Below, piece after piece: positions 3,930 through 64,000 of a DNA stretch of 64,000 nucleotides. Numbering within the stretch: the first letter of the stretch is position 1; each line of letters opens with the position of its first letter. The DNA is from Stieleria varia. GTDB taxonomy: Bacteria > Planctomycetota > Planctomycetia > Pirellulales > Pirellulaceae. The position numbers were made by a program, and so were the translations under genes. Location of the stretch: assembly GCF_038443385.1 (NCBI RefSeq), contig NZ_CP151726.1:7068001-7132000 (forward strand), written 5' to 3'. The notes beneath the pieces are model-generated. The model saw nothing but the letters and a program-made list of their open reading frames with translations, was not told the DNA's origin and made no database searches.

Positions 3930-4417
3930 CGATCAATCACTCATGATGTGTATTTTCAAAGAGAGCGTCATCAGGATAAACCGCTGGGCAGGGGAAATGA
4001 ACGGTATGCCGCTGTGATGGATCGTTTTTTCCTGATCTCAGCAGTTAGGTCGGCAGCCGAGCCGGGGATTCTGAAATCGCTGGCCCTTCATTAGATCCTC
4101 TGGGCACCCAGTGAGTCGAACGATCGGATACAATCTCGCATCTCCTACAGGCAGCTACCATTTCGGTGGTTCCTGTCACACGAACATGGATTCCACGTGA
4201 CGCGGTCCGAGCAGATTTCTAGGGCCTTGATACCAGCACGACGCGCGAGCGAGTGGTTGATGGTTTCTTGTTCACTCGCTTGCGCTTCTTGCTGGTATTT
4301 GCCTCGTTTCCAACCACTGTCAATTCGCGCTCACAGCGTGCACCGAAAATCGACGCAGATAGTGAGGTTGCGTGGGTGGCCGAGGAAGCCTGATAACCTC
4401 AATGATCAACCAACCCA
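3930..4417. other. Gene-free divergent intergenic region
   Basis: 488 bases between divergently transcribed genes, so it must hold promoters for both. I could not assign convincing -35/-10 boxes. The only clear structure is the long imperfect palindrome at 4230-4298, listed separately. Short open frames here have no recognisable product. Confidence 0.6.
4230..4298. repeat. 26-bp-arm inverted repeat (ACCAGCACGA..GCGAGCGAGTG type)
   Basis: Left arm 4230-4255 and right arm 4273-4298 are complementary at 23 of 26 positions, with a 17-base loop. The sequence ATACCAGCACGACGCGCGAG and its inverse resemble a palindrome that recurs between genes in Rhodopirellula-type genomes (from memory, not searched). 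It lies ~120 bases upstream of the membrane/LRR gene. Confidence 0.8.
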
Positions 4418-7400
4418 ATGCGTCTGCCCCAAGTTCCCAAAGACCGCGTGATTGATGCCACGCCGGTCGCTCTTTCCCTGATTCTCATCAGTTTGCTGCA
4501 GGACGCCACTTACGTGGGGCTCGCACTGTTGCACCTTTGGCTTTGGTTGAGACATCCCCGATCGAAATCTCGTTACTGGGTTTTTGCGGCCGCCGTGTCG
4601 CTGTACCTCGGCCACTTCGTAGGACTGCCTTTGTTGATTGACTATGTAGGCAAGATCAACTCACCCTTCAAGTGTGATGCTTGGCAAAGAGTGTCCATGT
4701 ACATGCTGATCGCATCGGCAACGGGGATATTGCCGATCGCGTATCGGCTGATTTCGCGTTGCTCTCTGACGTACCGTGGTGAGCAGCAAGACGACGACGA
4801 TGCAAGTGATTCCCGTGCGGGAATCTCGGATCTCATCTTCCTCTCGCTTCTCTGCGCAGTCGCTTTGTTCAGTGCCCGGATACCGGAGTTCGCTTGGGAC
4901 TACTACTGGTCACCCTCACACACGCTGTTGGTGACGCTCTACTACTCCGCACTCGCGATCGCAGCGATGCGAATGGGAGCGTCCGGCTCTCGCACGACTG
5001 GCGTCGTTGTTTTTCTCGTCACCTGGATCGTTGGATACATCGGATGCAAATTCTTATTGCTGGGCGTCGGCGTTGTTAGCGATGAACTGCTAGATGATCC
5101 GTATTGGCTGACACCAAGGAATGCATCACGGTATCACCAGCCGAGTTTCATCGGAGCATTCTTTGTGGGTTTGTTCCCCAGCATTTGCAGAAAGTGTGGC
5201 GTAACGCTGAGGATTCCCAGGCCGTCTGTCGCCAACTCCGCAGTTTTTGCCGACACAAGCAGTCAACCAGCTCAACGTGAGCACGTGAGTCGATGGTCGC
5301 GTGTTGGCAGAATCCTGGGCTCATGGTTCTTGTTGGTCAGCCTGCTGATTCTGGTTCTTCATCCGTTCGGAACGATCGGTCGCTATGATTCAGACGGTTA
5401 TCGGGTCGCAGGCTGGCCATTGAGGTACCTGGAACAAGATCAAGTCAATCAATCGTCTGCTCCGTTGATTTGGACAGAGTCCGATACCTGGGCCACGGTG
5501 GACTTCAGTGTTGTATCACTCATCCTCAACCTCCTGATCGCGATCGCCATTTGGTTGATCTTTCTGCCTCCAAAGCGGCTCAAACAGCTGGTTTCAGCCA
5601 TGACGCTGCGTCGCGTCCGAATCACCACGTCTGTCTGTCTGGTGATTCTCATTTTGATGAGCACACATGGTATCTACTGGCTGCGCATGATCGCGCTTCG
5701 TTCTCAGGAGGGAGTGCGATATCATCGTTTTGAGCAATATCCCAAGCTCGGATCGATTGCCAGCCTCGCTGATAAGTTTGATTCCGCCATCCTGCCATCG
5801 GAATACCGAATCAAACGTGGTCGTCCGACATCGGTGACGTTGAGCGAAAGTCCACCCTCGGTAATCACGCATGTTTTGGGCTTGCCCGTGCTCCATGACA
5901 TCACCTTGCGGAGGTGTCGCTTGCTGCCGGAGCATGTTGAGCAATTGGCAACGCATCAAAATCTCGAATCGATTGAATTGGAGGACTGTGAGCTTTCCCC
6001 CGATGCCGTCCAACGACTTCTTGCCGTACCGCAACTGGTGGATTTGCAACTTGAGCGGACGCAGGGCGAGGAGGAACTCATCCGAATCACACGCTTGGAT
6101 TCGTATTACGGACGCAGGGACTCTGACGCAACCGATTCGCCGCGATTTGAAATGGCGTTGTCTCGCAACGGTGGCGATATCTCGGTGCCACAGCGGGTCA
6201 GTGAATTGACGATTCTGGCGCCCTATGATATCGATTGCGAGTTTCAGATTCGGTCTGCACCTGACCTGCAAGTGCTGCAAATCAGCAGCATGTCCGTAAA
6301 GATTTCTGAAGCGGTCACCCGTCTAACGATCATGGATGCCCCTGCATTGGAATCCGTCTTCTTGAGCAACTCACAGAAGGTCGATTTGGAAATCGAGTCT
6401 GCGGAGAGCGTCCACACGATCAGTGGTATCCCAATACGCGGCCTCGATCCCTTTGCGAGACTGACCGCGTTGCGGTTCCATCGTCCAACGCGTCTGGAGA
6501 AGCTATTCATTGATATTTCTCAATGCACAGAGTTTACAGTGGGCGGTCGTTCAAATGGGCAGGATTCCCGCTCGGGTGATGAGCCACAGGACGCGTCGGG
6601 CAAAGTTTTTGTGGAGCAACTGAGACTGGCAGGATTGTCAGGTGTGGAACACCGCGATGACGAGTTATCAAACGAGAACTTGGTGACCTCGTGGCTAGAA
6701 TTTTTTCCAGAACAAATCGACGCCACGTACCTTTCGGTCGAGCGGATGAGCATCTCTCAGGAAGCTCTGGAGTTGCTGCCGAGTTGCTCGGAAACTCTCC
6801 GTTTCATTGATTGCCGAGTTGCTGCAGATACATTCGATCACGCTGATGAAAGCGTCCCGTCAACACGTCGCTTGATTGCCCCCGATTACTCGCCCGATGA
6901 TGTGCAACTCGCAACTCTACTGAAAAAGGTTCCGAGTCTATCGGGAATTCATATCAGCGGGAGAAAACTCACAACCATTCCTCGTGCTTTGGCGAGGGAT
7001 ATCGTGCAAGTGACCATCGATGATCTCAGTTTGAACGGGGATGATTTGATGGGATTGGCATGGCCGGACGTTTTGAAAGCGAGATTCTGGAATCTGAAAG
7101 TTTCCGACGAAGTGTTCCAGTCTTGGAAGATGCCATCGCTCGAAGCCATTGATCTTGCCGGTTCATCCGTTTCGATCGAAGCCTTTGCCTTGTTCGCAGG
7201 CAAGTCTCCGAGTTTGAACTCCATCAATCTGGAGACCGAAGCGACGTCAGAATACGAGGATTACGAGAAAGAAGGCAAGATTTTCCTCAGCGGCCGACGA
7301 ATCACGAGTCAGGATTTGAAATCCATTGTTCGACTTCGATGCGAAATGGTCGACTTTCAAGGCTGCGAGATATCGCCTGCCACGCTGCGAGAAATCGAGC

Positions 7401-46755: not shown

Positions 46756-48021
46756 ATGCGCAAAACGATGAAGAGCGCTGGTTTCACGTTGGTCGAATTG
46801 TTGGTGGTCATTGCGATCATCGGCATTCTCGTCGGCCTGCTGTTGCCAGCCGTCCAAGCGGCTCGCGAAGCAGCACGGCGGATGAGCTGTAGCAACAATT
46901 TCAAACAGCTCGGATTGGCAATGCAGAATTACCATTCCAATTACAAGAACTTGCCCGCTCACTCGGCAGGCACGACTTACGCCGCCAACTCAGGCACGCC
47001 CGATCCACGACTACCGGTGGCCGGTGGTGGTGGTCACAACCGCAACGAACTGAGCTACCTGCCCGGCCTGCTGCCTTTCATGGAGCAACAAGGGTTGTGG
47101 GAGCAGATCAGCAACCCGATGGACTACAACGGAGACGGAACGGTTGACTATCAAGCCATGGGACCAGATCCTCGCATGACGCTTGCGCATCACGGAACTG
47201 CTCCGTATACGCCGTGGCTGACCGACATTCCGACGCTGCGTTGTCCCAGCGATCCCGGTGTGGGCTTGCCCGCTCAGGGACGTACGAATTATGCGGCATG
47301 CCTTGGTGATTCGCCTCACCACATGCACGTCGGTAACGAGCAAGACAACGGGCTTACTCCCAATGCCAACTGGGCTCTTGCAGAAAAGGCTGCTTGCCGC
47401 GGTGTGTTTGTGGCCAGCAACGAAACCAAGTTCCGCGATATCCTGGACGGGCTGTCGAATACCATTGCCGCTGGCGAAATTGCGACGAGCCTTGGTGACC
47501 GAGATAAGCGAACCCATCCGCCCCAGGCTCCGACGAGCATCATGGCAACCTCCGGAAACCCTCAGGGCCCGGACAATGCGTTGGCATGCCGGGGCATGTT
47601 GGATCCCATTCGCCCTCGTTTCTGGGTCGCCGGTGCGCCCTTTGTCCAATCTCCGATTGCCGTTGGTGGGTCTGTTCAAGAATGGACCCGGGGCATGAAG
47701 TGGGCGTACGGTCGCCCACTTCAATCAGGCATGAACACGATCTTGCCACCCAACTCGGAGATCTGCATGCAAGGCAACGTTCACAATGAAGGTATCTTGC
47801 CGCCCAGCAGTCGCCACCAAGGTGGTGCACACATCTTGATGGCCGACGGTGCGGTCGTCTTCATGAGCGATTCGGTCGAAGCGGGCAACTCAAGTGCTCC
47901 GCCCGTTCGCTGGGACTCATGGGCCATCAATCCCGCAGGCTCTCCAAGCCCTTACGGTCTTTGGGGTGCCCTCGGTACACGTGCTTCTTCCGAAGTGGTC
48001 GAAGAATCACTGAATCAGTAG
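46756..48021 (+). CDS. DUF1559 protein with prepilin-type N-terminus
   Basis: A 421-residue planctomycete-type protein. The N-terminus MRKTMKSAGFTLVELLVVIA is a class III (type IV pilin-like) signal, cleaved after Gly before FTLVE; the hydrophobic helix continues IIGILVGLLLPAVQAAREAA. DUF1559 follows: RRMSCSNNFKQLGLAMQNYH, YLPGLLPFMEQQGLWEQISN, LSNTIAAGEIATSLGD, and the C-terminal SRHQGGAHILMADGAVVFMS typical of the H-X9-DG family. Such proteins are thought to form pseudopilus-like or surface structures. AAGAGG lies six bases before the ATG. The gene ends with a strong terminator. Confidence 0.95.
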   Translation: MRKTMKSAGFTLVELLVVIAIIGILVGLLLPAVQAAREAARRMSCSNNFKQLGLAMQNYHSNYKNLPAHSAGTTYAANSGTPDPRLPVAGGGGHNRNELSYLPGLLPFMEQQGLWEQISNPMDYNGDGTVDYQAMGPDPRMTLAHHGTAPYTPWLTDIPTLRCPSDPGVGLPAQGRTNYAACLGDSPHHMHVGNEQDNGLTPNANWALAEKAACRGVFVASNETKFRDILDGLSNTIAAGEIATSLGDRDKRTHPPQAPTSIMATSGNPQGPDNALACRGMLDPIRPRFWVAGAPFVQSPIAVGGSVQEWTRGMKWAYGRPLQSGMNTILPPNSEICMQGNVHNEGILPPSSRHQGGAHILMADGAVVFMSDSVEAGNSSAPPVRWDSWAINPAGSPSPYGLWGALGTRASSEVVEESLNQ

Positions 48022-48280: not shown

Positions 48281-51200
48281 TTACTTCAACTCTCGCTCCC
48301 AAAGCTCATCCTGCCCCTGCGTCGCCAGGTATCGCTTGTTCACGGTCACGTTGCTCCAAACCTGAACCTCCCCAGTAGGCCATGTGACCTCAATGCTCTG
48401 CAGCATTGCTCCGACGCCCAACCCGAGATCCAGTATCGGTTGGTCCGTCACAAAGTAGCCATCGCCGGCTGTCATCCAAGTCGACAGGCTGCCACGGTTC
48501 GTGGTGACCAGCACCTTCGCACCAATCGCGTCGCGTTCACATTGAGTGCCGATCAGTTCCAGTTGAATCCACTGGCCATCGGAACGCGTCTGGTTTCTCA
48601 GTAGTGCAACCGGTCGGTCCAGATGGTTGATCACCAGGTCAATGGCCCCGTTGTTGTCAAAGTCAAACTGGGCCATCGCACGCCCAAGCACCGGTTCCGC
48701 CCAATAGCCAGACTCATCTTGGATATCTGCCGGTTCGAATCGGTCGTTCCTGCCGTAGAGAAACTGCTAGGACATACGAAACGGCTGTCCTTTGTGGGTC
48801 AAATCAAATATATGCCCATTGGTAACGAACAGGTCCTGCCAGCCGTTATGGTCGACATCGATGGCTTTGCACCCGAAACCGACCATGTTCTTGCTCGGCG
48901 AGTCCAGCTCGTATCGAATCGCCTGGTCAGAAAAAAATCCATTGTCTACCTGAAGATATAGATTGGCCGGTTCGTTGTAAAAGTTGGTGACGTGCAGGTC
49001 CACTCGACCATCGTGATTGAAGTCGCCTGTCGCGATTCCCATGCAGCCATACGACGCGCCACTGAAGGCGTTGGCCACTCCAGCGGAGTCGGCAATGTTT
49101 GCCAGCTTGCCGTTGCCGGTATGCTTCAGCAGATGGTTGGGGCGGACATCATTGGCGACGAACACTTCGTTTCGTCCGTCTCCATCGAAATCCGACACCA
49201 TCACACCGAGAGACGTCGCGGGCTTGGCAGCTTCACGATCGATCACGTGTTCAATGAACGCGCCGTTGGTCTGATTTGCAAACCAACGGTCTGGGCTCGC
49301 ATAGTGAGTCAGCGGCGATGGTGTCATGACGCCTCCTTCATCATCCAGCGCCGGTGCTGCATACGCGCCTTCGGTCTCGATATAATTGGACTCAAAAAGG
49401 TCTGGCAAACGATCGCCGTCTATGTCGGCGATCGCGACGGATGCCGTCACCATGTCGTTGCTGTTCATTCCAACAAGCTCAGTCGCGTCGCGAAACGTGC
49501 CGTCCCCATTGTTGATCATCAACCGGTTGGGACCTTGGTTTCCCAGCCACAGATCGGGCCAGCCATCCTGATTGACGTCGCCCGCGGCAATTCCGGCGGA
49601 GTAATGATGGTCATCGGTGCCAGCTTGGTGTCCCACGTCGGCAAACGAGTTGCCAACGTTGCGGAATAATTGGTTCGAAAGAGTGGCGGTCTCGTCGGGT
49701 GGCTGGCATCCACCTTGGGCAAAGTAAACGTCTGGCGATCCGTCCAAGTCGATATCGATCACGGCGATGCCGCCGCCAAGTGACTCATGCAACGCAATGG
49801 AGCTGAGGTCAATCTCGGTGTCCTTGTACCATTGAAAACTCAGTTTCATGTCTGAGGCGACATCCGAGAACACTGGCACCGCCAATGGCTGATCCGAAAA
49901 CGGGTCTTGGTTATCCGTGGGATCACGCATTCGTTCCAGTTGCTCGAGCGAACCGGCGATTTCGAATGTTTCGGGCTTCAAGCCCAACAAAGCAGCATCC
50001 CACGGCATTCTCAAGGCATCGGGATTTGCACGTAGGTCGGCACGACGTTGTGCGATGACCGTTCGAGCGGGCGTCGCGCTTGGCTCCAACGCCAGCAGTG
50101 TCCAATGCAACGCTTCAAAGGGACGTTGTAATTGCAGCATGTACTGGGCCATCAATTGTTTCAGCGCCGGATCGCTTGGGTTATCCAGGATGTCGGCCAA
50201 GAGTTCCTCGGATTTCGCCAATTGAATTGCACGGTACCGAAATTGCTCCGCCGAATCACGTTGATTTAACGCATCCAACACTTTGGCCAAACGTTGGCAA
50301 GACGATCGATCGGTTGGATTGCGACGAACCGCTTCGAGCAACGCTCGGGCACATGCTTCATAGGATTGTTGATCGAAAAGAAAAATTCCCAATGCCGCCC
50401 AGTAGTCGCTCAGCTCTTTCGCAGGCTCTGTTGCGTCAGCGAGCCATTGCCGCACTGCCTGATCGTCCTGTAACTCCGCCAAGAGGCGGCCTCGCAACGC
50501 GAATGGGGCAGCGTGGAATGCATCAATATCATTCGCTACCGTTTCGTGCTGCTGCAGTATCGCCAGTGCATGACTGAACTCGCCGCGACTGAAGAACCAG
50601 CGGGCGGTCTTGGGGGCGTCTTCCTTGGGGGCATCCATCACAGGTGCGGATTCATTGCGACGAATCAGCGAGCAGGTTTCCTCGAACGTGGCGACGCCGG
50701 TTTGCACCAACGCATCGACTTGCCGGGCGGCCTCTTCGCAGCGCCCCTGCTGGTTCAGCAGAAACGACAGCCTGCGGCGCAGCTCAATGACTTGTGAGAA
50801 CCGGCCGCTCGCTTCGGGCACGTTTCGCAATCGTGTCATCGCCTCGGAGAGGCACTCAATGGCTTCGGCGTTTTGATTCGATTGCAGTAAGGATTCCGCG
50901 AGTTGTTCAAGAGCATCCAAGCCCCGTTCCGTATCCAAGTCGATCGATTCGCATAATTCGATTGCGGCGGCGTGGTCACCGGATGCAACTGCAACCCGAA
51001 CTGCGAGCCAGCGAACTTTCTCTGAGCTTGGGTTCAGGACCAAAGCATCCTGAGAAAACTTTGCCGCTGCCTCCAGATCATTGGCGTCCAAAGCGAGTTC
51101 CCCTCGCGACAAGAGGCTTCGCAACCGAGACGCGTTTTCGTCACGCGATTTCGTGCCGTCCGTGGCAGCCGACTCCACACCGCCAGCGAACGAACCTGAA

Positions 51201-51337
51201 GACTGCCCCTGCTTCGATTCGTCCCCATTGCACCCCACGAGTATTCCGACCAAACAAAGCATGGAAATTTGTTTTCGGAACGGCCAACTGTTGTGTGTCA
51301 ACGAATTTTCCGATCGCTTCGATAAAAACACATTCAC
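48281..51337 (-). pseudogene. TPR/FG-GAP/UnbV lipoprotein gene interrupted by one in-frame TAG
   Basis: One continuous homologous frame of 1018 codons with a single internal stop (TAG, plus-strand 48767-48769). The first part, 856 codons, has a lipoprotein-like start (a GTG start; lipobox ILVGC), TPR repeats (for example LRSLLSRGELALDANDLEAA), then FG-GAP/VCBS repeats with calcium loops (GIAVIDIDLDGSPDVYFAQG, GIAAGDVNQDGWPDLWLGNQ, GIATGDFNHDGRVDLHVTNF). It ends GQPFRMS at the TAG. The next codons, QFLYGRNDRF.. then FDFDNNGAIDLVINHLDRPV and WIQLELIGTQCERDAIGAKV, are in the same frame and align with the paralogue at 53303-56200 (FRMPTQIFSGNG). They form the last FG-GAP unit plus the UnbV/ASPIC domain. 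No frameshift is needed. Either a nonsense mutation, a sequencing error or readthrough. Confidence 0.85.
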
Positions 51338-51485: not shown

Positions 51486-51578
51486 ATGCTGACTTCTATC
51501 CAACGTTTTTGCTTTTTGAATTGCGCCGTTTGGATTTTGATCGTAACGGGATGCACTCGTGACCTTAAGCAACAAAAG
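51486..51578 (+). pseudogene. Signal-peptide fragment of the IS-split lipoprotein gene
   Basis: 31 codons from ATG 51486: MLTSIQRFCFLNCAVWILIV then TGCTRDLKQQK. This is a complete lipoprotein signal with lipobox IVTGC (Cys23). It stops reading as a gene at the insertion point of the IS. The codons CAA CAA AAG at the end are the 9-bp target duplication, which reappears at 53303-53311 in the same frame as the rest of the gene. Removing the IS and one duplication joins QQK directly to VEPGNDEYTTKLDQAERLLI. Confidence 0.9.
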
Positions 51579-53302
51579 GAGTGTGACCGGCAACCCGCCG
51601 GTTAACATGCCATGGTAAGCGGAGTGTAGTGGCAGACCATGTTACGGTTTGGATGGGTGCTCTCGCTCAACTCCGTGACTCGCTGTTTGCAGAATTTATC
51701 CCAGTAGTCACTCTGAAATACCGCCCGCACGTTGAGCATGCTCCGTGCAGCTTCCAGCGTCCAACGCATCCCGCTTCGTTCCATGCGGTCCTTTACCAAG
51801 TGCCCGCACGCGCCTTCGATCACACCCGAGGCAATCGGGTAGCCTGCAGCAAGATATTCGTCGTAACGCATCCGATCCTTGTGTTTCTCGAAGTAACCAC
51901 AGATGCGTCGAAGGTCTTTGAGTTTATCGCCCTTGAGTTTCCCAAGCGAACCCATTCGACGTAGCCCTCGGATCACCCCGTTGACCTCACCACGCAGGAT
52001 TTTCAGCAATCGCTCCCGCGTAAACGCTGCTCGCTTTTCGCTGGATTTCTCGAACAATGACGAAGCCTCCCACACGTAAGTCGCTACGTGAATGATGTCC
52101 AAGATTGGCACCACTAATGGATCGTCGCCTAAGTGTAACTGCGCGACTTCCCAGAGGCTCTGCTGACCGTCCATTAACAGAATGATCACTTGGAGTTTCT
52201 TTCGGCGGACACTGACTTGATCTGCGAGCCATGCGATCCCCTCGTGGATACCGCTGATGGGAACCTCCGTATCGTCGTCCACGAAGGTCGCGGGAAAGTG
52301 AGCCGATGTATGCTTGTGCTTTGGCCGCGGTCGTTTCTTTTTGCTCTTGCGTGATTGCGTGCCGGGTTCTTTGTCATCACGGAACAAGGCAGCGACAATT
52401 TGCTCGGCTGTGCGAACATAGGGATCGACGGTGTAAGCACTCGTGACCGTTGCCATGCGACGGTTTCCGGGCCGTTTCTTTGCTGTCTCAAAAGCAGCCA
52501 CTTTGGCGGCATCGTCTTTGATCAAGGGAACGCCCTTGCAGTCGGCCGAAGCGACGAGAAGCTCGGCTTCATCCTTCTTTTTGGGCGTCGGCAAGTCGTC
52601 CAGAAAGGCATCGGCCTGGACCCCCATTCTCTGGCTGGTCTGTTCGAGCGTGTCGATCGAGAATTTCGCTCCGAAAACGAGTTCGAGATTATCAGCGGCC
52701 TGGTTGAATGCGGATTCGACGCAGAACATTTGGGAGAACTCTTGGAGCAGGTACGACCAGCGGTGCTCCGGCAGTTGCATGCGGGCGCTGATCGGATGCA
52801 GTTCGATTCTCTTGTTCTTTCCCGGGCTGTAGGTGTACTGTTGAAAGGCGTGTTCACCGAAAATCGACCGAACCACCGTGTCGGTCGGTTTCTCGCTGCG
52901 TCGCAGTGTTTTGCCTGATTCGCTGACCGCTTGATCACCAAGGTCCCCCTTGCCTTGGAGTTTGGTGAAGAGCTCCATCGCCAGAAAGCCGGTTTTCAAG
53001 ACAAGATTCCACACGGCACGCTCGGTTTCATCGAAAGACTGGCCGCATTTAGAAGCATTGACGACGTGTTCTCGGATGGTGTCGCCGCACTGCTGCAGTT
53101 TCTCGGCGATTTGCTCGGGCGACTGCGGAAAAGAAGACGAAGTGGGGTTGTCAATATCGCTTGAATGTTCGACGCTCATTTCAGCGGCCTCCTGCCTTTG
53201 ATACCTGGAAGTTAGAACCCAAATCATGGCAGGTTGGCCGCTTTTTGTTTACCCAGATTCCGCAATGCTCCGCAGAAGCCCCGCGGGTTGCCGGTCACAC
53301 TC
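51579..53302. mobile_element. ISKra4-type insertion sequence, complete
   Basis: 1724 bp. Perfect 20-bp terminal inverted repeats GAGTGTGACCGGCAACCCGC (51579-51598) and its complement (53283-53302). Flanked by the 9-bp direct repeat CAACAAAAG (51570-51578 and 53303-53311), the target-site duplication. It holds one transposase gene on the minus strand. Both ends, the duplication and the transposase are intact, so insertion is recent and the element may still be active. Confidence 0.95.
51602..53179 (-). CDS. ISKra4-family transposase
   Basis: A 525-residue transposase starting MSVEHSSDID (ATG 53179); the frame is open 48 bases further up, into the IS end. Seen: the N-terminal helical region (HVVNASKCGQSFDETERAVW), VASADCKGVPLI, RRMATVTSAYTVDPYVRTAE, the catalytic core VIILLMDGQQSLWEVAQLHL and ILDIIHVATYVWEAS, and the conserved C-terminal YDEYLAAGYPIASGVIEGAC followed by GHLVKDRMERSGMRW. 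These are the DDE-type blocks of the ISKra4 family as I recall them. The stop codon is 23 bases inside the left terminal repeat end. No disruption is visible. Confidence 0.95.
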   Translation of the reverse strand: MSVEHSSDIDNPTSSSFPQSPEQIAEKLQQCGDTIREHVVNASKCGQSFDETERAVWNLVLKTGFLAMELFTKLQGKGDLGDQAVSESGKTLRRSEKPTDTVVRSIFGEHAFQQYTYSPGKNKRIELHPISARMQLPEHRWSYLLQEFSQMFCVESAFNQAADNLELVFGAKFSIDTLEQTSQRMGVQADAFLDDLPTPKKKDEAELLVASADCKGVPLIKDDAAKVAAFETAKKRPGNRRMATVTSAYTVDPYVRTAEQIVAALFRDDKEPGTQSRKSKKKRPRPKHKHTSAHFPATFVDDDTEVPISGIHEGIAWLADQVSVRRKKLQVIILLMDGQQSLWEVAQLHLGDDPLVVPILDIIHVATYVWEASSLFEKSSEKRAAFTRERLLKILRGEVNGVIRGLRRMGSLGKLKGDKLKDLRRICGYFEKHKDRMRYDEYLAAGYPIASGVIEGACGHLVKDRMERSGMRWTLEAARSMLNVRAVFQSDYWDKFCKQRVTELSESTHPNRNMVCHYTPLTMAC

Positions 53303-56200
53303 CAACAAAAGGTGGAGCCTGGGAACGACGAATATACGACGAAGCTGGATCAAGCGGAGCGGCTATTGATCGCCGGACAGCTTCAGGAAGTCGAGCCGAT
53401 TGTAGCAGAGCTGTTGTTGCAGGACGAGAGAAACCCAAGAGCCAACCTGATCGCTGGAATTTTCTTTAAGCTTCAGGGGCGATCTGCCGACGCGAAGTCA
53501 ATCTTGCGGCCGTTGTCAGAAAGGGATTCGAGCGTGGGTGCCATCGCAAAGTTGCATCTATGTGAAATCCTTTTACGTGGTGGTGAGGTGGGACTTGCTA
53601 TCGAGACGTTTGAAGCGTTGAAGAATTCCAAATGGACGTCGAACCAGGACCGACATGCTGCGGCGCGGGTGTTGAATGAGCTAGGGTACCGGCATGATGC
53701 AAACGAGCAGATAAGAGCTTTGCTAAGGTTCGGGGAAGCGACGCTGGAAGAGTTGAGGTGTTTGGCTGCTCCCGAACGAGCTTATTTCCCTTTTGCGACA
53801 AAGCCTGGGGTTGAGTCGATTCCAAAGTTTGGATTGTTGAACGTCGCTAGGTGCCTGCACTCGGAGGGTGACATCCGTGATGCGGTCGAGATCATTCGCG
53901 AAAGCGAAGAACTCGCAGATGGGAATCCGGTTGTTGTTGCTTACTGGGGGCAACTTCTACTCGAATCACAGCAGTTTGACTTGCTCGACGAGTGGGTTGC
54001 CAGCACGGAAAGTAAATTGCAGCGTTATCCATCGTACTGGCTCGCCGTCGGAGGTTGGGCGATGAGGCGCAAGGATTTCACGAGTGCAGTGCGCTGTTTT
54101 GCGGAGGCGATTTGTCGTGAGCCAGCAAGCGTTTCGGCACACGATCAGTTGGCATTGGCGTTCGCGGGACTTGGGGATCTGCAGAACGAGACCCGTTTTC
54201 GCAGTCGAGCCACGGAAGTCGAGTCAGCTCTGTTGCAAACTCGAAAGGTCATTGAGAGCCCTGTTGCGAACTGGAGTGATGTTGTTGATCTGACCGTAAT
54301 GCTTCGTGGTTTGGATCGACCGTTCGAAGCTATCTGTTGGGCAAAACTTGGAGCCCAGCGTTTCGGTCTGTCCGCAGATCATCTGACAAAAATCGAAACA
54401 GCACGGCAGAATGAATTGCGAACTGAATCATCAACAAGCTCACTGAAATCTAGACTGTGTGGAATCGAGATCGACCGATACGCATTGAAGATCGACGACG
54501 TGATTGCTGCCGAACTTGGAAGCAAGAAATCGAAAGGGGGGATTGAATCGGCGAAGCTTGAAATGAAGTGTTTGCCACCGAAATTCGTCAATGTGGCGGA
54601 GCAGACCGGAATTCACTTTCTGTATCGAAACTCTGCTCCTCCGATCCAACGAGCTTTTCGCATTTACGAGGCGTATGGCGCGGGTATCGCCGCAATCGAT
54701 TATGACCAAGACGGCGCGGTTGACTTTTACCTAGGACAGGGAGCTGCCGATTTGCCTGATGGCCCAGCCTCTGACGCTAATGAGCTTTTTCGCAATCTTA
54801 GAGGCAGATTTCAATCGGTCGGTGCGGAAACTGGCAGTAACGATTTTGGGTACACGTTTGGGGTAACATCGGGAGACATTAATCAAGACGGCTTTCCTGA
54901 TATTGTCGTCGGGAACATGGGCGAAAATACCATTTTGATCAATCAAGGGGATGGGACATTTGTTTCTCATGCCCCTGGGACGGACTCCTGGAGAGAATCT
55001 TATTTCACGGCATCCGTTGCGATCGCGGATGTTTCAGGTGACAACGTTCCTGATGTCATCGAAGTCAATTACTTGGACGACAAATCGATCTACGAGAAAG
55101 TAAACATCGCCCCCAATGGGGTGATTGCGAACGGGCCCAGGCCATTGCAGTTCATTCCTGCAGTCGACAGAGTATTTGTCTCAGACCGCCAAGGTGATTT
55201 CATCTCGCAGAAGCTTGGTGACGGCGGAAGTTCCGACGCTGCGACAGGACTTGGATTAGTCGTCACAGACATTGATGACGACGGCAAGATCGATCTTTAT
55301 ATCGCGAACGACTTGATGCCGAACTTCTACTGGAAACCTACTTTTGAAAAAGACTCGGCAGTAAATTCACTCAAGTTCATCGATCAAGCAGTCGCAAAAG
55401 GTGTCGCTATTGGAAACCAGGGAATGCCTCTTGGGTCCATGGGCATTGCCTCCGCTGATTTTGATGGCAACGGCTTGCTCGATCTGCACGTGACAAACTT
55501 CTACAACCAATGGTCCAATCACTACATCCAAAGATCAGACAGTGGTTTTAATGACCAAGCCCTGCCGTCACAATTGGATACTGCAACCTACCCCATGGTT
55601 GGTTTCGGTGTCGAAGCACTTGACTACGACAACAACTCCACCATCGACCTGGTCATCGGAAATGGACACATCGAGGACATCGGTGATGGAAGTGAGTTTC
55701 GTATGCCGACGCAGATTTTTTCTGGGAATGGGACAACCTTCGAGCAAATGAATGTCGATGGCGATCCCTATTGGAATAGGCCGCATCTTGCACGTAGCCT
55801 GATCACTTGTGATTGGAATCGCGACGGACGTATCGACGTTGCGGTCTCAGATCTATTAGAGCCGTTTGTTCTCCTGGAGAATCGCACCCAGAGCCAACGC
55901 AACAAATGGATTCAACTTCGGCTCGTCGGGACGGAGACTGAACGGGATGCGATTGGCACTCGTGTTCAGGTCTCCTACACCTTGGCAGGTTCCTCTCGTA
56001 TGTTTACTCAATTTGTAACGACTGGAGACGGCTACATGTGTCGCAATGAGCCGATCCTGTCATTTGGTGGCGAGACGATGCCCGCTGGAGTTGACATTAG
56101 TATCCGTTGGACCAGCGGGATGATTCAGGAAATTTCAAATGTTCTCGTTAATCATCGATATCTCATTGTCGAGGGCGATGATGCGGTGTATTTCGATTGA
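53303..56200 (+). pseudogene. Main body of the IS-split TPR/FG-GAP/UnbV lipoprotein gene
   Basis: About 965 codons continuing the fragment at 51486-51578. TPR-like repeats (LDQAERLLIAGQLQEVEPIV, LHLCEILLRGGEVGLAIETF) fill residues ~40-400. Then come FG-GAP/VCBS repeats with DxDxDG calcium loops (GIAAIDYDQDGAVDFYLGQG, GVTSGDINQDGFPDIVVGNM, GIASADFDGNGLLDLHVTNF) and a C-terminal UnbV/ASPIC domain (WIQLRLVGTETERDAIGTRV, VDISIRWTSGMIQEISNVLV). A start codon borrowed from the IS end (TTG 53234) could give a chimeric protein without signal peptide, so any product would stay in the cytoplasm. Apart from the insertion the frame is clean. The protein is 45 kb-class-independent paralogue of the gene on the other strand. 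Confidence 0.9.
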
Positions 56201-56319: not shown

Positions 56320-57822
56320 ATGATTGCGTTTGCCTGTCCGAAATGCCAACATCGTTATCGAGTCCCTGTTGCAAACGCGGGACGTGTGGCGGCATGCAAA
56401 AAATGTGAGCACAAGTTTCGGATTCCGAAGCCCAAATCGGAGAACGAATCTCAAGAGCAGTCCAGCCCTTCACGAACATCAGGGGCGGTGCCGGCGACTG
56501 TACCCCAGGCAAAAAACGAGGGGAAAAGAGCGTCCACCGAACAACCGGCTTCGACTGCTGAAACACTGATGGAGCAGATACGCAAAGAATTTGAGGGCAA
56601 GGTTCCCAGGAACCTGTTCAACATCGGTTATCGCATCTCGCTCTTGGCCGTCGCGTTTCTGATGCTGCTCTTGCCCGTGCTTTATCTCAGTGTGATCGCG
56701 GGTGCCGGGATCGGGCTCTATTACTATTTCACGGAGGTCATGCCGGGGTTGATGGAGACCCTGCCGCGTGGTCGTGGGGCAGTGTTTGCGATGATGATCT
56801 ACGTCACACCCATCGTTGGCGGCCTGATCATGATCGTGTTCATGATCAAGCCGGTATTCTTCACGCTGGTCCCCGAGCGTGCACAGCGAAAGCGATCACT
56901 CACCAAAGCGTCAGAGCCGGACTTGTTTGAGCTGGTTGACCACATTTGCGGAGTGACGCGGAGTCCCAAGCCGAAGCGGATCGACATCGACTACGACGTG
57001 AACGCATCGGCCTCATTGCGAAACGGTTTCTGGAGTTTGTTTCGTCAAGACCTTGTATTGACGATTGGTGCTCCGTTGATAGCAGGGATGAATCTGCGTC
57101 AGCTTACGGGCGTTCTTGCTCATGAATTTGGACACTTTGCCCAAGGTGGCGGTATGAAATCCGTCTACGTCATTCGCATGATCAATTCATGGTTTGCACG
57201 TGTCGTCTATCAACGCGATCAATTGGATGAGCAGCTCGACAGCGCCATCGAAAATGGTGACTGGCGGATTTCCATGATTTTGCTGGTCGGAAAACTGTTT
57301 GTCTATCTCAGCCGGATGATCCTCTGGCTCTTCATGATGATCGCTCACGCAGTCAGTTGCATCATGATGCAACAAATGGAGTACGATGCGGATCGCTATG
57401 AAGCGTTTGTGAGTGGCAGCGACTACTTTGCCGAGACTCACAAACGCATTCTGCAGCTTAGTTTGGGTCAGCAAGGGACGATCAAGGCGGTGATAGAAGG
57501 CCTGGAAAGTCGGCATTTATTGGGCGACTTGCCGAAGCTGACGTCTTCTTTTGCAGAACAGGTCAGCGCTCGTGACCTGCAAAAAATGGACAAGGCAAAC
57601 GAGGAAAGCACTGGTTTGTTGTCGACGCACCCGTCACACACCAGCAGGATCAAGGCGGCCAAAAAACTGAATGCGCCAGGTATGTTTCACATCGAGCGTC
57701 CGGCTCGCGAAGTGTTTCGTAACTTTGAGGGACTTTGCCAAGGAGCCTCGGTCGATTTCTATCGCAACGAGTTTGGAGTGTTGGTCAAACCCGAGCAGTT
57801 GGTTTCGTGGGACGATGAATAA
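56320..57822 (+). CDS. M48-family membrane metallopeptidase with N-terminal zinc ribbon
   Basis: A 500-residue protein. It starts with a small zinc ribbon (FACPKCQHRYRVPVANAGRV, CKKCEHKFRIPK: two CxxC pairs, MJ0042-type), then a polar linker. Two membrane helices follow (LLAVAFLMLLLPVLYLSVIA and TPIVGGLIMIVFMIKPVFF). The peptidase domain carries the zinc motif HEFGH in GVLAHEFGHFAQGG and the third ligand Glu in MEYDADRYEAFVSG, with a further hydrophobic region between. These are features of HtpX/Ste24-type M48 peptidases, which cleave misfolded or prenylated membrane proteins. The final His segment LSTHPSHTSRIKAAKKL matches the HPS motif of the family. Confidence 0.9.
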   Translation: MIAFACPKCQHRYRVPVANAGRVAACKKCEHKFRIPKPKSENESQEQSSPSRTSGAVPATVPQAKNEGKRASTEQPASTAETLMEQIRKEFEGKVPRNLFNIGYRISLLAVAFLMLLLPVLYLSVIAGAGIGLYYYFTEVMPGLMETLPRGRGAVFAMMIYVTPIVGGLIMIVFMIKPVFFTLVPERAQRKRSLTKASEPDLFELVDHICGVTRSPKPKRIDIDYDVNASASLRNGFWSLFRQDLVLTIGAPLIAGMNLRQLTGVLAHEFGHFAQGGGMKSVYVIRMINSWFARVVYQRDQLDEQLDSAIENGDWRISMILLVGKLFVYLSRMILWLFMMIAHAVSCIMMQQMEYDADRYEAFVSGSDYFAETHKRILQLSLGQQGTIKAVIEGLESRHLLGDLPKLTSSFAEQVSARDLQKMDKANEESTGLLSTHPSHTSRIKAAKKLNAPGMFHIERPAREVFRNFEGLCQGASVDFYRNEFGVLVKPEQLVSWDDE

Positions 57823-59147: not shown

Positions 59148-62100
59148 TTAAAACAGTGTGTCCACGTCGTCGTCGCTGACGCGTTTCATCACGCGGTCGG
59201 TCAATTCGGCAAAGAACCAATCGCTGTCACGTCCGCCGTGAACGTAGTCTTCGCTGCCGTCCGCGGTGATGGCTGCGGAAAGCTCATCGATCAAGCTGCC
59301 GATTCGTGTCGACACCGCTATGCTGTCGTCCGACCAAACCGACATCAATCGGTCCTCGTCGACTTCGCCCAATGAGTCGGCGATCAACAGGTCTTCGCCA
59401 TTGCTGCCTTCCAAGCGGTCTTTGCCCGATCCACCCACCAGCACGTCGTTCCCGTCGCTTCCGTGTAGGCGATCGATGCCAACTCCGCCGGACAGGAAGT
59501 CATTTGCCTTGCCACCGCGCAGTTTGTCATTTCCGCCACCTCCGTACAAACGCAGCGGAATCGTCAGCTGTCGATCGGCGGCGATGTCATCGTCGCCGTC
59601 ACCGCCAAAGATATCGATACGGCTGATGTTTTGGTACAAGGTGGTCGTGAACGGTCCTCCCGAACTGTGGCGTAGCTCCACCGAGTTGGGTTCGCCTTTG
59701 ACCCAAATCAGACGAATGTCGTCGTTCTCGCTGGTGGCTCCGAATACCAAGATCGACATGCCGGGCTGATCCAGGTCGGCGATCAATTGTGCCGCGTCGA
59801 CAACGATGGGAACCGTTCCCGATCCGATGCCGTTTTCACTATCGGTCGCTGTGACCGTGGCAGTAAAACTGCCCGAATGCGCCGGGGTGAAGCTGAAGGT
59901 AGCCCCGATGCCACTGTCGATCACTTGTCCATTGGAGTCGGTGATCTCCCAGATGAAGTTCGGCGTGGCACCCGGTGGCAGGTCGCTGATTGCAGCGGTC
60001 AACGTGATCGCTTGGCCGCTCACACCCGTTGCGGCAGTCGGGACATCGACGATTCGTGGAACCAATACCGGCGGATCCACCGGACCTGGATCAACGGGCG
60101 ATCCGCCGCCGGAATTCCAAGTGGCCGGATCGGCGACTCCGTTGGCCGAGTCGATCAAGAATTGGGTTTCGATCGGCGTGATGTTGTTGAAACGGAACAC
60201 GCCGATCTCGTCTCGCAAATCATTTCGTGGGAAATCACCGCCGTCGTCAAACAATCGATTGACGCCGCCGTCGGCTCGCAGGCTGTCCCTACCACTGCCA
60301 CCCATGATCTCGTCGTCGCCGTCGAGTCCACGAATGTTGTCGTCGCCGATCTGCCCCAGCAGTTGATCGTTTCCATCTCCACCGTTGATTCGGTCACCAT
60401 GCAGCTCCAATCGGATCTCGGCCAACGATGGATCATCGACGTAGTTCTGCAAACTGTCGTCAAAGTAGCCGATCTGATAGCCGCTGCGGTCAAGTGTTAC
60501 TTGTCTGGGCAAGTCGTCCATCATCATCGGTTGGATGATCGCGCCGTTGTCTCCCAGAACAATGTCATCTCCATCATCGCCATCGATTCGGTCCTCACCG
60601 ATCTCCCACCGAGCTTCGATCATCCCGATCCGACGTTCTGGCATCAGGGCGTCGGCCACTGTTCCGGTGGGTCGTGCGCGATCCAGTTGAGCCAAATGGT
60701 TCGCGTTCACCTCGGCTCGCTTCGCATTGGCAATCTGGTCGAGCAGTTCTTCGACGTGAATGTCCAAGTCTCGCAGTTCGCCGGCATCCGCAGGCGACTG
60801 CAGGACCATCGGTGTGACGATGATTCCTCGGTCGCCCAGGATCACGTCGTTGCCAAGTCCGCCGGTGATCTCGTCCAGATCCAACAGCCGATCCAGTGAT
60901 GGAACAAAGGCGATCCGATTGGCTGGCGGAGCCGCACCGAGTTGCGTCTGCACGGCACCGCTGCGGGAATCTTTGCGAGCCTGCAGATCGGATTCCAAGT
61001 TGTTGGTCAACACACGCAGGCTGTCTTCTAAAGCCGCAAGCGGTGCGCCAGAGATTCCCACCGTAACGACTGTGTCCGGCCAATCCGCTTCACTGCCGGT
61101 GACCAACGGTGCGATCAAAGTCCCTTCACCACCGATGATGGTGTCGTCACCGGCATCGCCATCAATGTCGTCTTCACCCATGATCAGACGATAGTTGTTG
61201 ACATAGTCGGCGCTGGCAGCCGTGATGGCTGGCAGACTTGGGCGAGTCGCTCTGGCATCATCAAACATGCGTTGCAGAACAGGCAAGTGTGCCAAATCGA
61301 CCATGGCTGCAGCGTCCGTGGCCAGGATTTCAAAGCCACTGAGGTAGTGATGCATGGCGGCAGCGTTTTCCTCGACGGTTCCGCCACCGGGCAGCTCTCG
61401 GGTCATTGGCATTTCGTAATAACCGTTGTCTCCTACGATCACGTCTTGCCCGTCGCCGCCGCTCAAATCATCGCCGCCGATTTCAATGTCGCGATCCATC
61501 ACGATGACACCGTCGATCTCATGGTCCACAACGGCTTGGTCCAAGGCTAGTCCCTCCAGCGAATGCATCAGCGTTGCGATGCGTTGCTTGGCTGCCCGCT
61601 GAAGTTCCTCCAGGGGTTCGATGTCGGTGTCCAGCTCGCTTTGTGCGATGAAATTGTCACCAAAGATCAAGTCGTCTCCCGCATCGCCTCCGATCGTATC
61701 TCCACCGGCCAAATCGTCGGCGTGGCCGATGACGGTCGGCGTCAAGGCAACAGAAGGCGTCAGCAGCAGTCCGTCACCCGTCGCGATCGAATCGTTACCG
61801 GCGAGCCAAGACAGTTCGGCATTGACACCTGAAACGCGGTCCCAACGGGGTTCCTGGGCAATCAGTCCGCCCGGTTCGGCGGTCATCTCCGGAATGATGG
61901 TTTGGCCGATGCTGGGCAGGTTGGGAACGATGCCCGTCAAGTTGCTGGCACCGGCATCAACGCCGATTAGCCGGATGCCGTCGATCATTTGCGACAGATC
62001 GCTTTCATAGGGAACCGTGTTGACACCGTAGTCACCGATCAGTGTGTCGTCGCCCGCGTCACCGTTGATCTGGTCGGCACCACGTTGTCCCAAGATCACG

Positions 62101-64000
62101 TCATTGCCGTCACCGCCACGCACGATATCGTCGTCGGAATCCACCAACTCGATCAACAAGGCAACCGTTTGCCACTGACCGGACAACGGATCGATCTTGC
62201 GTTGCCCGTTTGGCAAGTTCACACCAGCCAAGACGATGCGATCGGCATCCAAGATTTGACGTGCCGCATCAGCGGGCAGACTTGCCAAGCCGTTGGGGTC
62301 CAGCGGCAGGATGTTGCTGATCCGGCCTACTTGTTCGGTAACGATGTCGCGGTGCCATGTGCCGTCGGTGTCCAACTGTGGTGTGCCGTCTGCGTTGAAA
62401 TCTCGCAGGATGAGTCCGGCATCGGCGAGGATGTAGTCGCGTCCGGCACCGCCGTCGATGGTATCGCTGCCCAGGCCGCCAACGATTTCGTCCGAGTCGT
62501 CTTCGCCCAGAATCTGGTCATCACCGCGCTGGCCGATCAGGATGTCCTGAGCTTCGCCGCCCATCAGGATGTCGTCGCCACCGATCAAGTCCTGGTCGTC
62601 AAACGGCGTGATTTCTCGGATCGCGATCGTATCAAACGGCGCGAGATAGTTTTCCCAGGTGCCAAGCTGCGGCGACAGCAAGGTCCGCGTGATCAAAGCA
62701 TTATCACCCAAGATCACGTCTTCGTCTTCTTGACCGTCGATCGTGTCATTGCCATCGGCGCCGAAGGGAACATTGTGTCCACCGACGAGGTCGTCTTGTC
62801 CCAGACCGCCATGGATGGTGTCGTTTCCTTGGCCGCCGAAGATGAAGTCGTCACCGTCGTTGCCCTGGATCACGTCATTGCCACCCGCATCAGCGAGAGT
62901 AATGAAACGACTGATCGCATTGCGATCCACCGGTCGGGTGTAGTCGATTTCACCGTGGTCGCCCAGGATCACGTCATGTTCGCTACCTCCACTGATCGTG
63001 TCGTCCGCCGTGCCGCCGAAGATGATGTCGTTGTCTGCGTCACCATTGAGGATGTCGTTTCCGCCAGCGGTTGGATCGGTCACGATGATTTGATCCAAGG
63101 TCGCCGCATTGCCGTCACCGATCAGGAAGTCAATTTTTCCGTTGTCCCCCAAGATCGCATCGCGTCCGTTGCCGCCATGGATCGTGTCGCCATCGGCACC
63201 ACCGAGCAAGATGTCCTCGCCGTCTTCGCCAAAGATCGTATCGCCACCGGCGACCACGGACACACTGGTCAGAATTCGGTCCAGCGATCCCGGCGTCGCC
63301 CCCGACCCGACTGGTTCCAGATCGTAATCCAAACGTCCGTCGTCACCCAAGACGATGTCGTTGCCAGCGCCGACGTTGATTTGGTCACCCGCGTAACCAC
63401 CCAAGACAATATCGTCTCCGCCGCCGGTAGTGATCGTATCACTGCCACCACTGACGAGGTCCGTGGTTTCCAGGGCCAACGCGTTGCCAGCGTCGTCGAA
63501 CGTCGCGTTGCCGTTGTCACCCACCACGATGTCGCGAGAGACGTCGCCTGTCAGGTCGCTGCCGGCATCAATTTGGTCACCACCTGCTCCACCGAACACG
63601 ACGTCGGCACCCGCAGCGGTGTTGATCAAGTCACCAGCCCCATCGTCGGGATTGGTCGTGGTGATCAGCGTCAGGACGGAAGCACTGCCTCCGGTAAAGA
63701 ACACCGCCAAGCCGTTGTCACCGAGCACAATGTCGTCACCGCTGTCGTTGCCGATCGGCGACAAGTCCGCTCGGTTGACATCGATGGCATCGCTGCCAAA
63801 CCCGCCCAAGACGATGTCGTCACCGTTGCCCACGGTGATGTCGTCATCACCGCCGACTTGAGGAGCCGTTGTCGTTAGGTCGGCGATGATTCCCGCGTTG
63901 GAGAAATTCACCAAGCCGTTGTCGCCCAGCACGATGTCGCGAGACGCATCCGTGCCGCCTGCCAAGATCAGATCGTTGCCGACGCCGCCCAGCACGATGT
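59148..64000 (-). CDS. Giant secreted protein with hemolysin-type calcium-binding repeats and a PKD-like domain (5' end missing)
   Basis: At least 1616 residues; the frame is open to the end of the window, so the N-terminus is outside. Most of the protein is RTX-like repeats such as GDDIVLGDNG, GGDDTITTGGGDD, GNDIILGGTADDTISGG and NGRDAILGDN, in irregular blocks separated by ~60-100-residue spacers. They should bind calcium and form stacked beta-rolls. Near residues ~1360-1450 a PKD/Ig-like domain (VPRIVDVPTAATGVSGQAIT, PGATPNFIWEITDSNGQ) precedes a last repeat block (GGDGDDDIAADR, KLRGGKANDFLSGG) and a short tail ending DDDVDTLF. No catalytic domain is visible. Such proteins are probably surface or secreted adhesins. 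Confidence 0.93.
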   Translation of the reverse strand, partial: IVLGGVGNDLILAGGTDASRDIVLGDNGLVNFSNAGIIADLTTTAPQVGGDDDITVGNGDDIVLGGFGSDAIDVNRADLSPIGNDSGDDIVLGDNGLAVFFTGGSASVLTLITTTNPDDGAGDLINTAAGADVVFGGAGGDQIDAGSDLTGDVSRDIVVGDNGNATFDDAGNALALETTDLVSGGSDTITTGGGDDIVLGGYAGDQINVGAGNDIVLGDDGRLDYDLEPVGSGATPGSLDRILTSVSVVAGGDTIFGEDGEDILLGGADGDTIHGGNGRDAILGDNGKIDFLIGDGNAATLDQIIVTDPTAGGNDILNGDADNDIIFGGTADDTISGGSEHDVILGDHGEIDYTRPVDRNAISRFITLADAGGNDVIQGNDGDDFIFGGQGNDTIHGGLGQDDLVGGHNVPFGADGNDTIDGQEDEDVILGDNALITRTLLSPQLGTWENYLAPFDTIAIREITPFDDQDLIGGDDILMGGEAQDILIGQRGDDQILGEDDSDEIVGGLGSDTIDGGAGRDYILADAGLILRDFNADGTPQLDTDGTWHRDIVTEQVGRISNILPLDPNGLASLPADAARQILDADRIVLAGVNLPNGQRKIDPLSGQWQTVALLIELVDSDDDIVRGGDGNDVILGQRGADQINGDAGDDTLIGDYGVNTVPYESDLSQMIDGIRLIGVDAGASNLTGIVPNLPSIGQTIIPEMTAEPGGLIAQEPRWDRVSGVNAELSWLAGNDSIATGDGLLLTPSVALTPTVIGHADDLAGGDTIGGDAGDDLIFGDNFIAQSELDTDIEPLEELQRAAKQRIATLMHSLEGLALDQAVVDHEIDGVIVMDRDIEIGGDDLSGGDGQDVIVGDNGYYEMPMTRELPGGGTVEENAAAMHHYLSGFEILATDAAAMVDLAHLPVLQRMFDDARATRPSLPAITAASADYVNNYRLIMGEDDIDGDAGDDTIIGGEGTLIAPLVTGSEADWPDTVVTVGISGAPLAALEDSLRVLTNNLESDLQARKDSRSGAVQTQLGAAPPANRIAFVPSLDRLLDLDEITGGLGNDVILGDRGIIVTPMVLQSPADAGELRDLDIHVEELLDQIANAKRAEVNANHLAQLDRARPTGTVADALMPERRIGMIEARWEIGEDRIDGDDGDDIVLGDNGAIIQPMMMDDLPRQVTLDRSGYQIGYFDDSLQNYVDDPSLAEIRLELHGDRINGGDGNDQLLGQIGDDNIRGLDGDDEIMGGSGRDSLRADGGVNRLFDDGGDFPRNDLRDEIGVFRFNNITPIETQFLIDSANGVADPATWNSGGGSPVDPGPVDPPVLVPRIVDVPTAATGVSGQAITLTAAISDLPPGATPNFIWEITDSNGQVIDSGIGATFSFTPAHSGSFTATVTATDSENGIGSGTVPIVVDAAQLIADLDQPGMSILVFGATSENDDIRLIWVKGEPNSVELRHSSGGPFTTTLYQNISRIDIFGGDGDDDIAADRQLTIPLRLYGGGGNDKLRGGKANDFLSGGVGIDRLHGSDGNDVLVGGSGKDRLEGSNGEDLLIADSLGEVDEDRLMSVWSDDSIAVSTRIGSLIDELSAAITADGSEDYVHGGRDSDWFFAELTDRVMKRVSDDDVDTLF

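Follow-up and report, generated by a model that had tools for sequence, protein, structure and literature searches.

The window analysed here, a stretch of 64,000 nucleotides from the Stieleria varia genome (contig NZ_CP151726.1, forward-strand positions 7,068,001 to 7,132,000), contains a lipoprotein gene that is split into two parts by an insertion sequence (IS). A divergent paralogue of this gene lies beside it on the opposite strand and carries an in-frame stop codon. The features of the locus are listed in Table 1.

Table 1. Features at the split lipoprotein gene and its surroundings; positions are those of the 64,000-nt window
Feature	Position	Strand	Basis or remark
DUF1559 (PF07596) gene beside the divergent pair	46756–48021	+	Prepilin-type N-methylation motif
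Divergent paralogue, TPR plus FG-GAP	48281–51337	−	Lipobox LVGC; in-frame TAG at 48767–48769
5′ fragment of the split gene, 31 codons	51486–51578	+	Lipoprotein signal, lipobox IVTGC; sequence and joined-frame translation
9-bp target duplication, left copy	51570–51578	+	CAACAAAAG
ISKra4-family IS, 1724 bp	51579–53302	− (transposase strand)	Ends common to all 12 full genome copies
Left terminal inverted repeat, 23 bp	51579–51601	+	22 bp matching the right end
ISKra4 family transposase, 541 aa	51602–53227	−	NCBIfam NF033572
Right terminal inverted repeat	53280–53302	−	
9-bp target duplication, right copy	53303–53311	+	
Split-gene remnant, 962 codons plus stop	53312–56200	+	Signal and native start absent
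TPR-type helical arm, remnant residues 5–402	53324–54517	+	Model helices; profile matches to solved TPR proteins
FG-GAP beta-propeller region, remnant residues 424–872	54581–55927	+	Pfam, model strands, CRTAC1 match
UnbV_ASPIC domain, remnant residues 880–950	55949–56161	+	PF07593

A preliminary description of the locus had read the 5′ fragment as 31 codons with a full lipoprotein signal that close with CAACAAAAG, had noted that the same nine bases recur directly behind the IS, and had stated that removal of positions 51579–53311 leaves one open frame to 56200. All of this was borne out by our analysis. The nine bases form a perfect duplication, and joining the 5′ fragment to the remnant gave a single frame of 993 codons with a terminal stop only, in which no second lesion was found. 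The first 23 residues of the joined protein constitute a lipoprotein signal, with a basic N-terminus, a hydrophobic core and a lipobox ending in Cys, and the lipobox is unchanged if translation is taken to begin at either of the alternative in-frame starts, GTG 51459 or TTG 51474. In the present arrangement, the 5′ frame enters the IS for eight codons and stops at TAA 51603–51605, while the open frame of the remnant, counted from its first start codon, covers 53234–56200. The earlier claim that the remnant can only start at TTG 53234 was too strong, as TTG 53288, GTG 53312 and other start codons further downstream lie in the same frame.

The transposase matched the NCBIfam profile NF033572 with 256.7 bits (cut-off 205) over profile positions 6–422 of 422, and no Pfam family matched it. 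The ISKra4 family corresponds to the p-MULT 4 group, which has Mutator-related transposases; passages of the same paper give direct repeats of 8 or 9 bp, inverted repeats of 18–39 bp and a conserved terminal cytosine in the inverted repeats as properties of the family, and describe insertion upstream of sigma-A promoters for some members of the group (Guerillot et al., 2014; PMC3942029). The window IS resembles the family in its above-cut-off transposase, its 9-bp duplications and its inverted repeats of about 23 bp. The top strand of the element begins with G and ends with C. The preliminary description had taken both the terminal repeats and the duplication to be perfect; this holds for the duplication, whereas the inverted repeats match at 22 of 23 positions and are perfect over the first 20 bp only. 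In contrast to the ISKra4 members reported upstream of sigma-A promoters, the copy in the window, like at least four of the other copies, sits within a long reading frame.

Searching the window genome (9.72 Mb, single contig) revealed 12 full copies of the element and one 33-bp end fragment. All 12 full copies have identical end bases and each is flanked by its own perfect 9-bp duplication, the sequence of which differs from copy to copy; the ends of the IS are therefore fixed to the base. Given that 11 other copies share these ends and that the 12 duplications differ, the pattern in the window is not due to chance. The full copies differ from the window copy by 0–5 mismatches over 1724 positions, and the copy at C1:2700502 is identical to it. 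The GC fraction of the twelve 9-bp targets is 0.41; positions 2, 3 and 4 are each T in seven of the 12, and positions 7 and 8 are each A in six of them. Twelve near-identical copies are the type of repeat that is prone to misjoins in assembly. However, a misjoin would not yield matching 9-bp duplications around every copy, the frame continues exactly across the joined flanks and the genome is one contig, so that the chance of an assembly artefact at this repeated element is practically negligible.

A DNA search in which at most five candidates per genome were scored found the IS in none of the 13 congeners, and among 46 other relatives searched in this way only one (G021) gave matches, which were weak and partial. 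The near identity of the copies together with the lack of matches in the congeners indicates that the IS has probably spread recently in the lineage of the window genome. Four other copies (L043, L045, L047 and L048, each at about 4001–5725 of its locus) lie within frames of 1699, 680, 1419 and 794 aa, respectively, of which the 1699-aa frame extends to the locus end. Pfam searches with pieces of these frames identified a kinase that includes a partial FGE domain, a MacB/FtsX-type permease and a PQQ propeller protein in three of them, and just a sub-threshold planctomycete extracellular motif in the fourth. The frames around another two copies are shorter (312 and 243 aa), and the pieces of them that were searched matched no family. 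The insertion in the window is thus one of a recent burst and, being one among several by the same element, is an ordinary event. The lone 33-bp piece (L050 4001–4033; G000:C1:2285520–2285552) shares 97% identity with the right IS end, with the remaining element absent; it is either left over from an older copy or belongs to the end of another, related element.

The remnant encodes most of a multidomain protein. PF13517 (81.1 bits) and PF01839 (28.6 bits) both matched above their cut-offs, as did PF07593 (45.6 bits, cut-off 23.4), while matches to TPR_16 and TPR_19 stayed under theirs. An AlphaFold model built with 24 aligned sequences (mean pLDDT 85, pTM 0.81) is helical up to residue 402 and consists mainly of strands from residue 424 onwards. 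A profile search returned solved TPR proteins as well as CRTAC1 (E 4.1e-21). The best solved match found by Foldseek was murine CRTAC1 (9etn; E 4.6e-21, TM 0.72 by target length), followed mostly by integrin alpha chains with high rmsd. The protein therefore resembles CRTAC1-like/UnbV_ASPIC proteins in its three Pfam domains, in its structural match and in the order of an FG-GAP propeller followed by an UnbV_ASPIC domain, but is set apart from them by a TPR arm of about 400 residues at its N-terminus and by the bacterial lipoprotein signal that it carried until the IS inserted. On the basis of the model and the signal, we infer that the intact product was an exported, lipid-anchored TPR arm bearing a CRTAC1-like propeller, and that it was presumably located at the cell surface.

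The TPR-UnbV lipoprotein family has many copies per genome. A scan of genome contigs with the single protein did not find the relatives, whereas a scan with an alignment did find loci. The nearest relatives are about 40% identical to the split protein. At all 12 of the nearest-relative loci a lipobox-like motif follows a hydrophobic stretch near the N-terminus, as judged by eye. The preliminary description had named signal-less relatives starting at the equivalent of position 53234 as evidence contrary to its reading; none was present at these 12 loci, and none of them has a frame split like that of the window gene. In the wider family, 77 loci were kept by the alignment scan, and 72 of these have a frame longer than 850 aa. 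A crude lipobox rule was passed by 51 of the 72 frames and failed by 21, compared with 76 passes among 3600 shuffled N-termini and none among 72 interior stretches. The joined window protein passed the same rule and the chimera starting at TTG 53234 failed it. The proposal that the IS separated a protein from its lipoprotein signal thus gains support from the duplications around all copies, from the joined frame and from the lipobox-like starts of the relatives. The split protein shares its architecture with TPR-FG-GAP-UnbV lipoproteins of Stieleria, Rhodopirellula and Rubripirellula and differs from them in being split by an IS.

Of 241 genomes of the taxonomic family searched at E <= 1e-150, with at most three candidates scored per genome, 31 (the own genome included) had a match, and among the candidates scored only the own copy exceeded 42% identity. 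With the nearest relatives only about 40% identical, no uninterrupted relative permits a base-by-base alignment of the junction, and an empty site could thus not be aligned. Likewise, synteny cannot be used across the insertion site, because the downstream M48 peptidase gene (56320–57822) was not found at the 12 relative loci and has no close relative in the genus; some match to it exists in 12 of 14 genomes, the own genome included, with a best foreign E value of 3.0e-34. Three loci with over-long matches (L152, L161 and L170) were considered as similar insertions and rejected, since their tblastn pieces cover the same parts of the query repeatedly or lie in other frames, which is the pattern expected of neighbouring paralogues.

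A tree of 42 rows was built from the best locus per genome, the closest relatives of the divergent neighbour and the ten best members from the own genome, including both window genes; five weaker own-genome matches and further congener paralogues were omitted, and the midpoint rooting served display only. The split gene fell into a group of 13 rows (support 100/100) together with one gene each from 11 of the 13 congeners and one from G026. The other own-genome members in the tree, namely eight paralogues and the divergent neighbour, all lie outside this group. When a relative from G005 was used as the query against the window genome, the split gene came first with 740 bits and the next match had 566. 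At 1.2, the end branch of the split gene is long compared with the median of 0.47, and this speaks against a tightly conserved role. Its third-position GC (53312–56197) is also low, at 0.535 compared with 0.62–0.68 in five other measured window genes. The long branch and the low third-position GC could reflect a different origin or relaxed constraint.

Among the columns that are invariant in 12 relatives, the remnant keeps 138 of 151 (0.914). This lies within the range of 0.873–1.0 obtained when each relative was left out in turn, and the remnant therefore has no excess decay. Together with the duplications around all 12 copies, this result agrees with the earlier suggestion that the insertion is recent. 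We consider it most likely (probability about 0.88) that an IS inserted into an intact lipoprotein gene and that the resulting allele is null and young, since 962 codons have lost the signal and the native start. According to this interpretation, the gene would have come first and the IS second: a recently mobile ISKra4-family copy would have entered codons 29–31 of an intact gene through a staggered cut of 9 bp, and this gene would have encoded an exported, lipid-anchored TPR/FG-GAP/UnbV_ASPIC lipoprotein. The native start and signal would now lead eight codons into the IS and then to a stop, and the rest of what is predicted to be the folded protein would be left with neither. This is a textbook IS knockout, an ordinary event that is unusually clearly documented.

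It is conceivable, though improbable, that the remnant is still expressed, from an mRNA that begins in the right end of the IS or reads through from outside, and that it is translated from TTG 53234, TTG 53288 or GTG 53312 into a signal-less cytoplasmic TPR-propeller protein. An open frame does extend from 53234 to 56200, and a promoter-like match on the correct strand (53198–53227) lies just upstream of TTG 53234. However, such matches occur at near the chance rate (two in the region; mean 0.7, sd 1.0 in shuffled sequences), and a family member that is not exported would probably not reach the site at which it is likely to act. Visual inspection showed no well-spaced ribosome site in front of any of the three starts, which counts for little against expression, as the native ATG 51486 has none either. 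We thus read the allele as null, with an expressed cytoplasmic chimera as the weaker rival. A reversible switch, in which some cells of the population would regain the lipoprotein through precise loss of the IS, appears very improbable: a single copy of the duplication would restore the frame exactly, but the same holds for any IS insertion within a reading frame, and no feature of the element suggests regulated excision.

The divergent neighbour is also broken. Its TAG falls at residue 857 of 1018 and severs the UnbV_ASPIC domain, and all 38 other rows aligned at this column have a sense codon. Behind the TAG, the frame is intact up to the natural stop and keeps 41 of 53 conserved columns, compared with 255 of 328 (0.777) for the whole gene; as the columns behind it are kept at the whole-gene rate, the TAG is probably young. 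Read-through of the TAG is possible. The own genome has an intact relative of the neighbour, L078, with 46% identity. The relatives of the neighbour keep 0.941–1.0 of the conserved columns, and its lower score may be due to distance or to relaxed constraint; the score is ambiguous, because the neighbour branches outside the compared group in the tree, which alone lowers it.

These data bear on the question of whether the split gene was already dispensable or decaying, along with its neighbour, when it was hit, so that the insertion was a passenger. The broken state of the paralogue, its reduced share of conserved columns and the long end branch of the split gene are all consistent with this explanation. 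Nevertheless, no other lesion is present in the remnant, whose share of retained conserved columns is normal, the neighbour's position in the tree is sufficient to lower its score, and the neighbour keeps as many columns behind its stop as overall. Earlier decay therefore seems rather unlikely, although it deserves consideration, and we retain insertion into an intact gene as the preferred reading.

The second broken gene of the divergent pair and the group membership of the split gene are new points of this study. The double lesion gives some indication that the two genes can be lost jointly. More speculatively, the pair may be in the course of being lost together, each gene by a different and apparently recent lesion, or the IS allele may act as an on/off switch in the population; we regard this as a long shot. 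If joint loss were true, it would suggest selection in this lineage against displaying the two lipoproteins, for example because one of them serves as a phage receptor or surface marker. The locus is in any case a clean one, in which the ends are fixed by 12 copies and the former frame can still be read, and it probably provides a natural loss-of-function allele in the TPR/CRTAC1-like lipoproteins of planctomycetes. In the literature searched, including passages of PMC3942029, PMC3909097 and PMC11588811, this element is not reported and no role is described for TPR-UnbV lipoproteins; nothing was found that joins Stieleria with an insertion sequence, or UnbV with DUF1559.

At 11 of the 12 relative loci (L051–L061 and L012), a DUF1559 gene lies about 0.6 kb or less from the lipoprotein relative, the match at L012 being of 38 residues at a contig edge; at the twelfth (L056), the DUF1559 gene adjoins a neighbouring paralogue instead. 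In the own genome, three of seven UnbV clusters lie within 3 kb of a DUF1559 gene, a count reached by 118 of 20000 random placements with a limit of 3 kb that was picked post hoc, after inspection. A functional link between the pseudopilin and the lipoprotein is a guess. Further downstream in the window, a minus-strand frame of more than 1600 aa (59148–63998) runs to the window end and contains RTX calcium-binding nonapeptide repeats (PF00353).
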